45,995 bases of DNA, from the NCBI GenBank assembly GCA_022780515.1, contig JALEUV010000023.1, positions 1 through 45,995 on the forward strand, written 5' to 3'. This DNA is from Anaerococcus sp. (GTDB lineage: Bacteria; Bacillota; Clostridia; Tissierellales; Peptoniphilaceae). Of the stretch, positions 10,469 through 17,609 are shown piece by piece (within the stretch, counting starts at the first letter, position 1; every line of letters begins with the position of its first letter). The notes beneath the pieces were generated by a model, which saw nothing but the letters and a program-made list of their open reading frames with translations, was not told the origin of the DNA and did not search any database. A program made the translations under genes and the position numbers.

Positions 10469-10498
10469 TAAGGTCATTTAAAAATATATAATATTAAC

Positions 10499-10575
10499 GA
10501 ACACTAGGGGTGCCTTATGGCTGAGATAAACCCTTTAACCTGATCCGGGTAATGCCGGCGGAGGTAAGTTGTTAT
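10499..10575 (+). promoter_or_regulatory. TPP (thi-box) riboswitch
   Basis: ggggtgcc...ggctgagataaaccctttaacctgatccgggtaatgccggcggagg matches the THI element consensus; precedes thiT. Confidence 0.96.
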
Positions 10576-10611
10576 TTGCCTCCTTGGGTTTTGTTCAAAG
10601 GAGGATTTTTT

Positions 10612-11151
10612 ATGAAAAAAAGTTGGTCAGTAAAGGTCCTAGTCGAAGCAGGCTTGTGCATAGCCCTTGCCTTTGTACTAGGAAACATAAAGATATTTAC
10701 CATGCCTCAAGGTGGATCTATAACAGCAGGACAAATGATTCCTCTTATAATATTCGCCCTAAGACATGGTCTAGGTAAGGGAATGATAGTGGGCGCGGCC
10801 TATGGATTCTTGGATATGATTACTGGTGGCTATATAGTTCACCCAGCCCAAGCCCTACTTGATTACCCCCTAGCCTTTGGAGCCTTGGGACTTGCAGGAA
10901 TTTTCTCAGAAGAATTTATGACAACAAGGTCAATCAAGACTGTATTTGTAGGAAGTGCCTTGGGAGTAGTAGTTAGATATATCTGCCACGTATTGACAGG
11001 AGTTATCTTCTTCTCATCTAGTGCAGGTAGCCAAAATGTATGGGTCTACTCATTGCTCTACAATTCATTCTTGCTAGTAGAATTCTTGATAACAGGTCTA
11101 ATCATCTACCTACTAAGGGAAATGATAACAAAAGATATGGCTAAAATGTAA
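10612..11151 (+). CDS. thiT: thiamine ECF transporter S component ThiT
   Basis: LVEAGLCIALAFVLGNIKIFTMPQGGSITAGQMIPLI...GAAYGFLDMITGGYIVHPAQALLDYPLAFGALGLAG; start set at 10612 after AAGGAGG rather than at 10552. Confidence 0.95.
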   Translation: MKKSWSVKVLVEAGLCIALAFVLGNIKIFTMPQGGSITAGQMIPLIIFALRHGLGKGMIVGAAYGFLDMITGGYIVHPAQALLDYPLAFGALGLAGIFSEEFMTTRSIKTVFVGSALGVVVRYICHVLTGVIFFSSSAGSQNVWVYSLLYNSFLLVEFLITGLIIYLLREMITKDMAKM

Positions 11152-11198: not shown

Positions 11199-12833
11199 TT
11201 AAGACCTAATTCTAAAGGTCTTGTGGCCTATCTTGTAGACTAAAAATAAGGTAAGAGCTACAAAGTTTATGGAAAATATTATGACTATGGAAATAAAGAC
11301 GTAGAAACCAACAAAGTCAAATAGTTGAGGGGATAAGAAGATACACACCCAATATAGGATTATATCTATTGTTGCTGATATTTTTCCAACAGGCTTACCT
11401 TCTTGGTCAAAGGGTTGGAAGATATAGTATTGCATAAGGGGTAGGCAGGTGAAGAATAATCCCATAAAGACTATAGAGATTGCTCCACCGATCATCTCTC
11501 CTATCCTAATTCCTGTTACCTCAGATGTAACAAGGCTAAAGGAGATTATCAAGGATAGGGTTGGCACTATCATTATCTTAAGGAGGGAGATAAGCCTTTG
11601 CTTGAACATGGCAAGGAGGTTCTTATTTTCCCTATAAAAACCATAAGGGATAAGGCCCTGGTCGCAGTTTAAATACATGGTCTTTATTATATTATTTTGC
11701 TTGCACAAGATATACATAACCATAGGCAAGAAATATACCAAGGAGTCAGAGTCTTCTTGGTCCAAAGGTTTGGCTACAAACTTCAATATAAAGAAGAGTA
11801 GGAAGCCCAGGGCTAAAACTATGAGGGACCTAATTATAATAGGCTTAGTTATTAACTTCTTGTGCCTTATAAAAAACAAGTTGTTGAGGTAGGCAAAGCC
11901 AGTTCCCTTTACTTTTTCGTATCCAACATCCTTAACATCAATTTTGGTAGTAAGGTCATTAATGGTATCTAACTTATCAAGGTTAATTTGATATTCCCTG
12001 TTGGCCTTTTCTATGACATAGGCATAGGAAGTGAAATTTTTAATATAGGCTAATCCTGCGATAAGGCTTATAAAGCCAAGGGCGAAGGCTATAAGGCTTA
12101 GGGCAAGAGGGCTTAGACCTATCCACAAAACTCCTAGGGCGAGGGCAAAGTTTATTAGAGTCATTAGGGCCAACTGAAGAAATCCATTTTGAAAGATGGT
12201 CTTTTTATCCTTCATATAAATTCTTAGCCAAAAAACCGAAGCTCCAAGCTCTAGGCAGAAGATGGCAGCTGACATAAGGATACTTACATAAATAGGCACA
12301 TCTCCAAAGACCTTAAAGTAGAATGCAAAGACCAGGCTTCTCCCTACAAACCTAAAAGCTGGGTTATAGTAGAGGAAGGACTTGAATAAGTCCTTAGGCT
12401 CCATATGAAAGATATTATAATAATCATTAATAGTTGCGAAATTATCAGTGATGAAATTTCTAAATAGGGCTAGGGATAGGTAGAAGATTGGCACTATCAT
12501 TCTTCCTGCCAGATAATTATTTAGCTCCATCATAGATCCTGGCTTGTATCCTATAAGACTTACGATGGGATCAATATTGATTAATATAGAAAAAACCATC
12601 AAGTCTAATACTAATGGAACTAATAAGGAAAAAACAGATTTTATTGCCTTTCCTAGGAGGGATAATATTGGATAAAAGGCATAGACTACTTCCTTAAATT
12701 CAAAAAAGTTATACTTGTCTCCTAGTCTTTTTCCGATTATCGGTAGCTTTCTTGTAGTCCAAACCAGACTATTTATGGTCTTGGTGAGGTTTACTTTTTG
12801 GATGATAGAAAAGGCCCTATAGCTCTTGTTCAT
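11199..12833 (-). CDS. ABC transporter permease-like large membrane protein
   Basis: Many hydrophobic segments; coupled to and overlapping the ATPase gene by 17 bp; likely start MNKSYRAFSIIQKVNL at 12833. Confidence 0.75.
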   Translation of the reverse strand: MNKSYRAFSIIQKVNLTKTINSLVWTTRKLPIIGKRLGDKYNFFEFKEVVYAFYPILSLLGKAIKSVFSLLVPLVLDLMVFSILINIDPIVSLIGYKPGSMMELNNYLAGRMIVPIFYLSLALFRNFITDNFATINDYYNIFHMEPKDLFKSFLYYNPAFRFVGRSLVFAFYFKVFGDVPIYVSILMSAAIFCLELGASVFWLRIYMKDKKTIFQNGFLQLALMTLINFALALGVLWIGLSPLALSLIAFALGFISLIAGLAYIKNFTSYAYVIEKANREYQINLDKLDTINDLTTKIDVKDVGYEKVKGTGFAYLNNLFFIRHKKLITKPIIIRSLIVLALGFLLFFILKFVAKPLDQEDSDSLVYFLPMVMYILCKQNNIIKTMYLNCDQGLIPYGFYRENKNLLAMFKQRLISLLKIMIVPTLSLIISFSLVTSEVTGIRIGEMIGGAISIVFMGLFFTCLPLMQYYIFQPFDQEGKPVGKISATIDIILYWVCIFLSPQLFDFVGFYVFISIVIIFSINFVALTLFLVYKIGHKTFRIRS

Positions 12834-13590
12834 ACTTATCTTCTTTCTTATTGGATAGCTTCCTTGAGGCTTCCTTAAATTCATCATCTTCCTTATCACG
12901 AGTCAATAGGGAGATTACAGTATCTTCAAAGTTAGGGTCGTCTTTTATAAGGCCGTCCACAGCATGGAGATTTTTGCTATGGAGGAGGCAGATCTTATCG
13001 CAGATATCCTTGGCAAGGCCCATGATATGGGTAGAAAATATTATAATATGGTCCTTACGGATTTGCCTGATTATATTTTTCATCTGAGCTTGGACAACTA
13101 CATCGAGGCTTGTCAAAGGCTCATCCATTAGGATAACGATGGGTCTTAGGATTAAGAACATAATCATCTGTAACTTGTTTTTCATACCGGTTGAGTAATC
13201 TTGGATTAGCCTATCGGCATCACCCAGGTCAAAGTCAACCAGGTCAAAAAATTCATTAATATCTACATTTCCTTCTATCTTATCCTTGTTGGCATCTACG
13301 AAGAACCTGATAAATTCCCTACCAGTCAAAAACTTAGGGAGGTCAGGCTCGCTTACCATAAAGAATATATCCTTAAAATCTAACTTACGGGTAGAGTCTC
13401 CATCCTCTAGGTAGACCTCTCCACCATCCTTGTCTATACTTTCATTAATTATCCTAAATAGGGTAGTCTTTCCCGCTCCATTCCTACCGAGGAGGGCATA
13501 GACATAACCCTTGTCAAAGCTAAAGCTTGCTTTGTTTAGGACTTCTTTATTCCCAAATGACTTATCAATATCTTTTAAAACTAATTCCAT
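12817..13590 (-). CDS. ABC transporter ATP-binding protein
   Basis: Walker A LLGRNGAGKTTLF, YSTGMKNKLQMI signature, Walker B ILMDEPLTSLD, STHIM H-loop. Confidence 0.93.
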   Translation of the reverse strand: MELVLKDIDKSFGNKEVLNKASFSFDKGYVYALLGRNGAGKTTLFRIINESIDKDGGEVYLEDGDSTRKLDFKDIFFMVSEPDLPKFLTGREFIRFFVDANKDKIEGNVDINEFFDLVDFDLGDADRLIQDYSTGMKNKLQMIMFLILRPIVILMDEPLTSLDVVVQAQMKNIIRQIRKDHIIIFSTHIMGLAKDICDKICLLHSKNLHAVDGLIKDDPNFEDTVISLLTRDKEDDEFKEASRKLSNKKEDKYEQEL

Positions 13591-13686
13591 AATATCCTCT
13601 CTATTCTTTTACTATAAAAATAACATAATAACTATAATTTAGTCAAAATAAAAATTATTAATGAATATTTATACGATATTATGGAC

Positions 13687-13715
13687 TTGACTATTTAAGA
13701 AATTAAAAGTATATT
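13687..13715 (+). promoter_or_regulatory. predicted sigma-A promoter for the RiPP-like cluster
   Basis: TTGACT - 17 bp - TATATT upstream of the radical SAM gene. Confidence 0.65.
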
Positions 13716-13749
13716 GCTTAAAATAGCTAGCTGAAATGGGGGAAAAATT

Positions 13750-14973
13750 TTGACCAAATTATCTCAGTTTAATGGTTATATTAATGATAAGAATGATATT
13801 ATTGTATATAATTTAAATAAAAATTCATGTATTAGATTTAAAAACATTAGAGATATTGAAAAAGTAAAGCAAGTTTTACTACATAATGAAGTATTTGATT
13901 TTAAGAAATACGGATTCATCGTAGATGTAAATGAATCGTTACTATGTAGGGAAAATTATATGAAAATTAGAGAAGATGACTCAAAAATTATGGTTAACAT
14001 AGTTATGACCTACGATTGTAATTGTGAATGCACTTACTGTTTCGAGAAAATTGATTCTGAAAAAATTAATTACAAACATGATATTAGCGAATTAGATAAA
14101 ATAATTCAATATATCAATAAAATATCATACAATAAAGACCTCTATATAAATTATTTTGGAGGAGAGCCGTTATTGAATTATCCAGATATTTTTTATATTC
14201 ATGATAATTTACAAGGCAATAAAAAATTATTTGAAAATATTACTACAAATGGGACCTTGATTAGTAAAGATTTATCTAAACATCTAATAAGTAGAGGTAT
14301 TAAAAGTTATCAGATAACATTGGATGGTCCAGAAAATATACATAATATGAGGAGACCTCTCAAAAATGGAAAATCATCTTGGAAGTATACAATTAAAGGT
14401 TTATTAAATTTATTAGAAATTGATGATGATATTAATTTGAATATTAGAATAAATGTTGATGAAAATAATTATAAGAAACTAAAATCAATAATAGATGAAA
14501 TACCTAATAAAATAACAGAATGTAAAAATACTAATATATATTTGTCGCCTGTTTTTGGTAATAGTAAATATAATTCGGATGAGATTTTGAAGAAAAGAGC
14601 AAATATGATTATTGAACTATGGAAGCTTATAGATAAAGAAAAACTCTCTATAAAAAAATCTTTGCCAAAATTTTCTCCATGTACTAAAGATAGCTTATTT
14701 GGAAGTTTCTATATAGATTTGCAGTCTAATATATATTCATGTGGAGCTGATTTGGGAAATTATAAAAGAATTGAAGGGAATCTTGACAAAAGGAATTATA
14801 TTTTTGAAAAAAGAAAATCGTATTTTCCTGATGCATGTTATACTTGCATGTTTTTTTATAAGTGCATGGGTGGATGTAACTACGAGAAAGAAGCTTGTAA
14901 TATACATTGTCAATATCAATATCTTAAAAAAATATATGATTATTATTTTGCTCATATTAAAAGAGATAAGTAA
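13750..14973 (+). CDS. radical SAM/SPASM domain peptide maturase
   Basis: CNCECTYC radical SAM Cx3Cx2C motif, YFGGEPLLN, ITTNGTLI, QITLDGPENIHNMRRP; C-terminal SPASM pattern C...NIYSC...CYTCMFFYKCMGGC...C; TTG start after ggggga. Confidence 0.93.
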   Translation: MTKLSQFNGYINDKNDIIVYNLNKNSCIRFKNIRDIEKVKQVLLHNEVFDFKKYGFIVDVNESLLCRENYMKIREDDSKIMVNIVMTYDCNCECTYCFEKIDSEKINYKHDISELDKIIQYINKISYNKDLYINYFGGEPLLNYPDIFYIHDNLQGNKKLFENITTNGTLISKDLSKHLISRGIKSYQITLDGPENIHNMRRPLKNGKSSWKYTIKGLLNLLEIDDDINLNIRINVDENNYKKLKSIIDEIPNKITECKNTNIYLSPVFGNSKYNSDEILKKRANMIIELWKLIDKEKLSIKKSLPKFSPCTKDSLFGSFYIDLQSNIYSCGADLGNYKRIEGNLDKRNYIFEKRKSYFPDACYTCMFFYKCMGGCNYEKEACNIHCQYQYLKKIYDYYFAHIKRDK

Positions 14974-14978
14974 GACCT

Positions 14979-16565
14979 ATGAAAAAATATTTAAAAGAAA
15001 CAAAGACTATACAGTTAGTTATCATACTAACAATGATCCTATCAAGTCTTTTGATGGTTATTAACTCTTACTTCAATACTTGGATGACTAACGCTATTAT
15101 AGATGGCAATATAAGTAAATTTATAAAACTTGCCATAGGGGTAGTTATCTCTATGAGCCTTGTTCCACTTTTATCCTACATAAATGGAAAATTCATATCA
15201 AGATCTGACCAAAGGATAGCGAATAATTTAAGAGAAGATTACATAGACAATTTTATTATGACTTATACTCCAAAGACTGATAGGAAAAAGTTATCAGCAG
15301 ATGTTATAAGCCAGATGACTAATGATGTAAATTTTATTATAGATAAAGGAGTAAATGTATTTTATAGTTTTCTTGAGGGATGTTTTGGTGTAGTATTCCC
15401 TCTCTTGGGTGCAGCTCTTATCCATCCTATTTTCCTACTAGTATTTCCCCTAAGCGTGGTATTTCAAACTATCCTTATAGGAAAAATCAGCCCTAAGATT
15501 CAGGCCCTTGCTGGCAAGTATTCAAAACAAAACCAAGTCTTTGTATCAAGTCTATCGGACTTATTTGAAGGATTCGATACATATTTTAGGATGGGTAATA
15601 GTGGTATTTTTAAGGATAAATTCATTTCATCATCAGAAGGCATAGAGGAGAAAAAATATATCCATAGCGAAAAACAATTTTTTTATAAGTCTATTATGAT
15701 GGGGCTAATGATTATATCCCAATTTCTTTACATCCTTGTAGCGGGTATTCTCGTTGCCAAGAGAGTAACTAGTCCTGGTAGCATAGTCGGACTAATTAGC
15801 CTGGCACAAAGTTTTTATAGCAATACTCAAGTGGCTATGAACCAGTATATGAACCTCAAGTCATCAGATGCCATATTAGAGAAATTAACAAGTTTTGATG
15901 AGTCTTTGGATAAAATAAAGATAGGTGAGATAAGGGAGGGGGTATTTGTAAGAGACCTTAGCTTCTCCTACAAAAATAAAAAGATCCTGATAGATAAAAT
16001 GAGCCTAGATTTAGTAATGGGAAAGAAATACCTCCTCATTGGCCCTTCTGGGGCAGGGAAATCTACCCTGATGAAGATTTTGGCAGGATATATAGGTGAC
16101 TATGAGGGAGAGATCTTATATGATGGGATAGAGGCAAGGAAGATAGACTTCAAAAGTCTAATGAATCAAATAATTTATATAGACCAAGATGTCTATATCT
16201 TCAATGATAGCATCAAATTTAATATAAACCTGGGTAAGGAAATAGACGAAAAAACCTACCAAAAGGCCTTGGACCTAGCATGCTTAAATAAGCTTATAGA
16301 AAGTAAGAATGAGGGAGATAACTTTGTAATAAATGCTGATGGCTCCAATATATCAGGAGGAGAAAGGCAAATGATAGCCATAGCTAGGGCCATAGCTTCA
16401 GGCAAAGAAGTCTTCTTTGTGGATGAGGGACTCCAAGGAATGGATGTAGCCACCAAAAATCAAATCGAGCTAAACCTCTTAGGGGAAAATATCATGCTCG
16501 TAATGATATCACATGTGTCAGATGATAATAAAAAACTTTATGATGAAATCATAGAATTAAAGTAG
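14979..16565 (+). CDS. ABC transporter, fused permease/ATPase (peptide exporter type, no C39 peptidase domain)
   Basis: N-terminal TM domain; Walker A LIGPSGAGKSTL, signature ISGGERQMIAIARAI, Walker B VFFVDEG, H-loop VMISHVS. Confidence 0.92.
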   Translation: MKKYLKETKTIQLVIILTMILSSLLMVINSYFNTWMTNAIIDGNISKFIKLAIGVVISMSLVPLLSYINGKFISRSDQRIANNLREDYIDNFIMTYTPKTDRKKLSADVISQMTNDVNFIIDKGVNVFYSFLEGCFGVVFPLLGAALIHPIFLLVFPLSVVFQTILIGKISPKIQALAGKYSKQNQVFVSSLSDLFEGFDTYFRMGNSGIFKDKFISSSEGIEEKKYIHSEKQFFYKSIMMGLMIISQFLYILVAGILVAKRVTSPGSIVGLISLAQSFYSNTQVAMNQYMNLKSSDAILEKLTSFDESLDKIKIGEIREGVFVRDLSFSYKNKKILIDKMSLDLVMGKKYLLIGPSGAGKSTLMKILAGYIGDYEGEILYDGIEARKIDFKSLMNQIIYIDQDVYIFNDSIKFNINLGKEIDEKTYQKALDLACLNKLIESKNEGDNFVINADGSNISGGERQMIAIARAIASGKEVFFVDEGLQGMDVATKNQIELNLLGENIMLVMISHVSDDNKKLYDEIIELK

Positions 16566-16621
16566 GTATTAATATATATAAATAATATATGTTGATATAA
16601 ATAATTATATAGGAGGAACAA

Positions 16622-16777
16622 ATGAAAGAAAATGAAAATCTAAAAAATGACATTGATGATTTATCTAATGTAAAAATTGAGGTTGAATGTGAACCTTATG
16701 AAGAAGAAAGAATTGCTCATGATCAAACGTTCTTTACATGTGGATGCTTCGGAGGCAATACAATAACAGAAGATTAA
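16622..16777 (+). CDS. candidate RiPP precursor peptide (51 aa), not in the supplied ORF track
   Basis: RBS aggagg; MKENENLKNDIDDLSNVKIEVECEPYEEERIAHDQTFFTCGCFGGNTITED*; acidic leader-like N-terminus and Cys-Gly-Cys C-terminal segment immediately downstream of rSAM maturase and exporter. Confidence 0.8.
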   Translation: MKENENLKNDIDDLSNVKIEVECEPYEEERIAHDQTFFTCGCFGGNTITED

Positions 16778-16792
16778 AGTAAGAATTGATGG

Positions 16793-16818
16793 CAAAGGGA
16801 TGTTGTAGCATCCCTTTG
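16793..16818 (+). other. stem-loop 3' of the precursor ORF
   Basis: 10-bp perfect stem caaagggatg/catccctttg, loop ttgtag; no T-tract follows. Confidence 0.7.
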
Positions 16819-16946
16819 TACAACATCATCTAGGATATATTAATATATTAAAATATTCTAATAGATAAATTAAACAATATTACGGAGAGGATAAAATAGC
16901 ATAAAGGCAGATAGGTCGTCTTTGCCTTATAGGATTTTTCTAATTT

Positions 16947-17548
16947 TAGTGTACTTAATTGACACTTTAGTATAGAAACTCTGCTAATTTTTTTTCTACT
17001 GTTTATATGTCATCTGATGTGTAGATAAGCTTAATATCATTTGCTACTTCTAGTTTATCTTTTGCTCTTACTTTGCTTTCTATTCTATCACTTACAAAGA
17101 GTAATATACTTTCTAACAGGTTTGCTACTTCTCTTGTAGTACAAGCTTCTTATATAGAGTAATAACCAGATTATAAAGATTAACTGTGCTTCTAGCATTT
17201 CTTGCTTAAATTGATCTAATCTATCCCTGGGTATTTAAAGGTCAATGTTTCCGAATTTTGTTTATAAATTTCTATGATAATACTCGTTTCTTGAATTAGC
17301 AGAACCATAGTATTTATATTTCATTTGTCATAATCTAAAAATACTGCTAATCCTGATTTTAGGAGATATTTATAGAAATATCAAACGTCTTCTAAAAATT
17401 CATTAATATCTAATCCTTGGATTAGTATTTGCATTAAATCTATGTTAAAATTTTCCATAAGAGAACTCCTTGTTGTTTTATTCTTTTATATTAAAACTTT
17501 GAAAGTTTGAGTTCTCTTTTTCTATTTTTCCCATAATATTTTACACTA
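16947..17548 (-). mobile_element. eroded IS256-family insertion sequence remnant
   Basis: Degenerate IS256-like transposase segments on the minus strand with facing TAGTGTA (16947) and TACACTA (17542-17548) ends; about 0.6 kb, so internally deleted. Confidence 0.7.
16975..17459 (-). pseudogene. IS256-family (mutator-type) transposase fragment
   Basis: Minus strand reads MENFNIDLMQILIQGLDINEFLEDV*..., FGNIDL*IPRDRLDQFKQEM..., KVRAKDKLEVANDIKLIYTSDD; multiple stops and deletions. Confidence 0.75.
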
Positions 17549-17609
17549 TGATTTAAATTTTTTTAAATGAAAGTAAAATTAGAAATAAGAATATTTTTAG
17601 GAGTTAATT

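Follow-up and report, generated by a model that had tools for sequence, protein, structure and literature searches.

Does the short stretch at positions 16622-16777 of this Anaerococcus DNA, which is absent from the ORF track, encode a peptide, and if so, what would that peptide become? A sequence-only reading of the window (the whole stretch of DNA that was analysed, 45,995 nucleotides) had proposed an overlooked 51-residue peptide with a Cys-Gly-Cys motif, and the proposed translation was reproduced exactly. The features on which the answer draws are the following.

13687..13715, + strand: possible cluster promoter TTGACT-17-TATATT (consensus match only; the promoter scan overall did not rise above shuffled sequence)
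13750..14973, + strand: radical SAM/SPASM peptide maturase, 407 aa, with CX3CX2C at C90 and a putative RRE-like region at the N-terminus
14979..16565, + strand: ABC exporter, 528 aa, permease and ATPase, with no C39 peptidase domain
16609..16614 (approximate), + strand: Shine-Dalgarno sequence AGGAGG of the peptide gene
16622..16777, + strand: putative 51-aa RiPP precursor gene, core D34-QTFFxCGCFGG-45, leader residues V17, K18, I19 and V21 kept
16792..16819, + strand: stable hairpin just past the 3' end of the peptide gene (z -4.7), partly conserved in Anaerococcus sp. AGMB09787
16880..17480, - strand: remnant of a decayed Mutator-family (IS256-type) transposase next to the cluster (PF00872, E 1.7e-7)

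A short gene behind a maturase and an exporter

The peptide ORF opens with ATG, a short way 3' of the AGGAGG. Shine-Dalgarno sequences as strong as this one are rare among the starts in the window, and those that precede a gene-length frame belong mostly to ordinary genes. The ORF lies on the same strand as the exporter, 56 nt from its end, and is the third and 3'-most gene of a cluster that spans 13750-16777 in the order rSAM-SPASM maturase, ABC exporter, peptide. We regard this 51-residue gene as almost certainly genuine. Its context, its homologues and its codon pattern all argue that it is very probably the precursor of a radical-SAM-modified RiPP, as the earlier reading had supposed: maturase and exporter stand directly upstream, and a copy in another genus (G075, same family) also follows a homologous exporter. 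On the other side of the balance, the precursor is the last gene of its cluster, the maturase falls far under every curated cut-off, and the homologues are just two, neither of them beside an intact rSAM gene: that of AGMB09787 is truncated, and that of G075 would lie off the contig end. The situation that was to speak against the proposal, with no homologues next to rSAM genes and a non-coding substitution pattern, was thus not the one encountered, albeit on this small number of copies.

The hairpin downstream of the gene has no U-tract and is likely to mark the transcript end or to stabilise the transcript. Over 16792-16831 (+), two mutually exclusive hairpins are possible, AAAGGGATG/CATCCCTTT and GATGTTGTA/TACAACATC; the pairing AAAGGGATG/CATCCCTTT is retained in AGMB09787 with one compensatory change.

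Homologues, conserved core and origin of the cluster

In AGMB09787, the equivalent location carries a peptide copy with 49 of 51 amino acids identical, which differs from that of the window by three synonymous and two non-synonymous changes (S15C, E50K); nucleotide identity is 96.8% in the peptide gene vs 86.3% in the 3' spacer. The G075 copy is more distant (17/29 amino acids identical from V17 to G45, E 1e-7) and lies directly 3' of a partial transporter that shares 53% identity with the window exporter. Its 28 nucleotide differences from the window are spread 8/4/16 over codon positions 1/2/3 (chi-square p=0.018). When 28 substitutions were placed at random in a simulation, the frame stayed open with 17 or more identities in only 0.09% of trials. 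Within DQTFFxCGCFGG, 11 of the 12 residues are identical between G075 and the window, with five of those codons changed. The near-identity in AGMB09787, together with a G075 core kept despite five synonymous codon changes, argues that the peptide is under protein-level selection, with a conserved C-terminal core. The G075 copy may be a relic or contain a sequence error, since an in-frame start codon is missing, the contig opens within the transporter gene and the genome is 68%-complete; the cluster rSAM gene was not found there, the contig stopping within the exporter.

The peptide was present in just two genomes of the genus sample, and searches of plasmids, viral contigs, 249 genomes of the order and 399 of the phylum returned no further homologue. 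Similarly, a search for the motif TTYNNNTGYGGNTGYTTYGGNGG led to one class genome and to 31 loci on viral contigs, none of which proved homologous on inspection. No CGC peptide was recognised close to the exporter relatives in other genomes, and the small ORFs that adjoin maturases in plasmid and phage records were other peptides or none.

All three copies share V17, K18, I19, V21, P25 and E28, followed by D34-Q-T-F-F-x-C-G-C-F-G-G45. The earlier reading had asked whether CGC and FF were the conserved residues, and both are invariant in all three. It had also placed cysteines at 23, 40 and 42; the positions are correct, but conservation is confined to 40 and 42. As Cys23 is replaced by Gln in G075, it appears dispensable, and FFxCGCFGG can be taken as the core on the strength of the alignment.

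Several observations bear on where the cluster came from. The rSAM gene has a GC content of 23.9% (GC3 18%), the peptide gene 29.5% and the exporter gene 34%, against 36.8% for the window, so that the rSAM and peptide genes show a sharp AT bias relative to their neighbours. The transposase remnant at 16880-17480, which has several stops and frame changes, is common to AGMB09787. The cluster occupies a variable slot (13591-17609) bounded by a conserved ABC pair and a lipid-kinase gene; across the genus, this position just ahead of the lipid-kinase gene is taken by a GntR-ABC-ABC module in G038, G015, G033, G023, G016 and G020, by the RiPP cluster in two species and by a transposase insertion in G013. 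Moreover, the cluster remnants shared by the window and AGMB09787 are 93-98% identical vs ~90% for the flanking genes. Base composition, transposase remnant, slot contents, rarity and this excess identity together fit a recent horizontal acquisition or exchange of the cluster.

The copy in AGMB09787 (L004 6995-8156) has decayed. An 803-bp deletion, equivalent to 13693-14495 of the window, cut into the putative promoter and removed about 248 maturase codons, and an in-frame deletion of 1119 bp reduced the exporter to a frame of 155 aa. The precursor ORF itself remains intact behind a Shine-Dalgarno sequence slightly weaker than that of the window, and may have stayed so because little time has passed since the maturase and exporter were lost. 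A sister species that kept the precursor ORF and lost both of these genes provides a natural producer/non-producer comparison.

Maturase, exporter and the chemistry of the product

The maturase gene starts with TTG. The SPASM cysteines of the enzyme (C311, C331, C363-X2-C366-X5-C372-X3-C376 and C387) are invariant in its relatives, and 24 alignment columns are invariant across 15 relatives. The best NCBIfam profiles were CefB (134.6 bits, cut-off 600), the geopeptide maturase (133.6, cut-off 400), TIGR04463 (120, cut-off 525), PapB (92, cut-off 340) and Clo7bot (90, cut-off 600), so that the protein scores far below the cut-off of every curated family it matched; GggB was not among its 25 best hits. 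In 130 genomes of the family, the closest intact relatives were 28-32% identical (the truncated AGMB09787 copy set aside), and in 391 genomes of the class the only match at E<=1e-30 was in the window's own genome. By these comparisons the maturase appears to be an orphan, with no intact relative above ~32% identity among those found. The nearest solved structure by family-profile comparison is CteB (E 5e-43), a RiPP maturase that forms thioethers. A fold search gave TigE first among its top matches, with CteB and anSME; it started from an AlphaFold2 model that is weak (mean pLDDT 59), too weak for substrate modelling. In this low-confidence model the N-terminus is predicted to form three strands and then helices, which would fit, at low confidence, an RRE.

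The exporter starts 5 nt past the rSAM stop codon. Bacteriocin-exporter profiles align to it only from about residue 151 onward, and it scored 106 bits against the GggC profile, short of the cut-off of 750. The cluster revealed no protease, no regulator and no obvious immunity gene. The divergent ABC pair at 11199-13590 was considered as dedicated immunity genes and rejected, as it is syntenic in other Anaerococcus that have no cluster. Further upstream, a TPP riboswitch (RF00059, 65 bits) at 10496-10583 (+) precedes a ThiT-like transporter gene (10552-11151); the start of the annotated-length ORF overlaps the riboswitch, so that translation of this gene probably begins at the internal ATG at 10612, preceded by a separate Shine-Dalgarno sequence.

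The pathway that we propose would begin with docking of the acidic leader on the RRE-like domain of the maturase, probably via V17-K-I-x-V21. The enzyme would then oxidise the core by means of its SAM cluster and the auxiliary clusters of the SPASM domain, most likely joining Cys40, Cys42 or both to nearby residues through one or two thioether crosslinks. Short i,i+3 rings are the first guess, given the Cys-x-x-Gly spacing from C42 to G45 and the equal spacing from C40 to F43. The ABC transporter would export the peptide, and a host protease encoded outside the cluster would trim it, perhaps along with the variable post-GG tail. The product would probably serve as a narrow-spectrum antimicrobial or a signal.

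The type of modification can be read in several ways. A sactipeptide, with alpha-carbon thioethers in short Cys-x-x-acceptor rings (C42-G45, possibly C40-F43), is a tentative but reasonable reading: streptosactin acquires its rings from an rSAM enzyme in a similarly small peptide/enzyme cluster (PMC8172795, PMC13361665), C42-x-x-G45 and C40-x-x-F43 are kept in all copies, and the exporter matches GggC, albeit with a small part of the required bits. However, the maturase is closer to ranthipeptide-type families than to GggB, and the literature compared offers no precedent for i,i+3 rings that overlap at C40 and C42. These same profiles, with CteB, would favour a ranthipeptide carrying a non-alpha-carbon thioether, for example from Cys42 to a residue in the segment past FGG; PapB also tolerates Cys-Xn-Asp with n=0-6 (PMC9413430). 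This is a rather doubtful reading, as the residues after GG are unconserved and the conserved core contains no Cys-X3-Asp/Glu; the single match, C23-X3-E27, is gone in G075, and a PapB-type link at that site was set aside as unlikely. Some other rSAM modification (a C-C link with a conserved Phe, epimerisation or cyclopropanation), with CGC acting as a disulfide or in metal binding, would suit the conservation of FF and F43, which equals that of the cysteines, and the first rank of TigE, whose literature, in the part available, concerns non-thioether chemistry (PMC9062424). We consider it unlikely, since that ranking comes from a weak model and the relatives of the maturase mostly adjoin Cys-rich peptides. 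The chemistry class is therefore left unassigned: the spacing recalls streptosactin, the enzyme leans towards the ranthipeptide type, and the PapB rule is unmet in the core.

Two readings would deny the peptide this role or this core. The cluster could be decaying and the ORF a non-functional remnant, as the large maturase and exporter deletions in AGMB09787, the missing start in G075 and the adjoining transposase remnant might suggest; yet the window has a full-length maturase, a full-length exporter and a strong Shine-Dalgarno sequence, and the core has been kept between genera while its codons changed synonymously, all of which makes this highly unlikely. Cleavage at GG 44-45, raised in the sequence-only reading and pictured here as a double-glycine bacteriocin cut after G45 to free its C-terminal residues, has in its favour the conservation of the two glycines. 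It fails on other grounds: the product would be a six-residue tail that differs among the copies, the conserved block precedes GG, and the exporter lacks the C39 domain. We rejected a double-glycine leader for these reasons and regard such a bacteriocin as extremely improbable; with no C39 peptidase to cut a leader there, GG would instead be part of the core or a site for removal of the follower or tail. For the favoured reading, a modified RiPP, a bolder version is conceivable, if itself unlikely: an orphan maturase lineage that builds a compact bicycle of an unseen type on C40-G-C42-F-G-G, or forms links between Cys and the flanking Phe, as a new RiPP class in rare mobile clusters of Peptoniphilaceae.

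Comparison with known systems

By analogy, the cluster would work like a RaS-RiPP cluster. The streptosactin system (GggA/GggB, GggC) is likewise a small cluster of a short precursor, an rSAM-SPASM enzyme and a peptidase-less ABC exporter, and its rings, Cys31-Gly34 and Cys25-Ser28 (PMC8172795), similarly lie in a short C-terminal core with Cys-x-x-Gly. In contrast, the window maturase is not closest to GggB, and the window precursor is last rather than first. For the streptococcal RaS-RiPPs, 16 core motifs are named, including CGx and CGG (given by name only), and CGC is not listed among them; FFxCGCFGG falls outside these 16 (PMC13361665). Unlike those clusters, that of the window has no recognised Rgg/SHP regulator adjoining it.

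PapB is among the nearest rSAM-SPASM families; however, its 92 bits compare with a cut-off of 340, and its rule of Cys-X3-Asp/Glu (PMC9413430) has no conserved counterpart in the window peptide. The Clo7bot, CefB, geopeptide and TIGR04463 maturases provide the best profiles (90-135 bits), and related genes within the same bacterial family also adjoin small Cys peptides and ABC transporters. These relatives are ~420-440 aa long, whereas the window maturase has 407 aa; their peptides are mostly of 60-75 aa and Cys-rich, and three of the relatives tested against Clo7bot score 270-300 bits vs 90. CteB, the SCIFF maturase (PDB 5WGG/5WHY), is close by family profile and fold, but with 17% identity in the fold alignment, and the window precursor is not a SCIFF peptide. 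Among published Anaerococcus radical-SAM clusters, that of A. tetradius was considered and is different and larger (PMC3132745).

Other loci came to light beside these comparisons. In one relative (L010 1171-3093, genome G068), three Cys-rich peptides of 65-73 aa surround one maturase gene. Related rSAM genes also stand beside very short Cys peptides at L122 4263-4635 and L114 4306-4404 (one 467-kb viral-labelled contig) and at L120 2598-2699, with three tandem peptides of 35-37 aa of the type ..EYCDGCDQVSDWTGTCRGTDQ at L122; these may be rSAM RiPPs on phage-labelled DNA. An unannotated human faecal 'Bacteriophage sp.' scaffold (MT836237.1; L109 1109-5334), which is probably bacterial DNA, carries, besides an ABC transporter and two rSAM genes, an acidic Cys peptide of 39 aa.

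The locus adds a precursor family from an anaerobic commensal genus, with a core, FFxCGCFGG, unreported within the reach of our searches, and its three genes in 3 kb are open to co-expression testing. More generally, this is a known kind of system, in which the core motif is new and the maturase an orphan.
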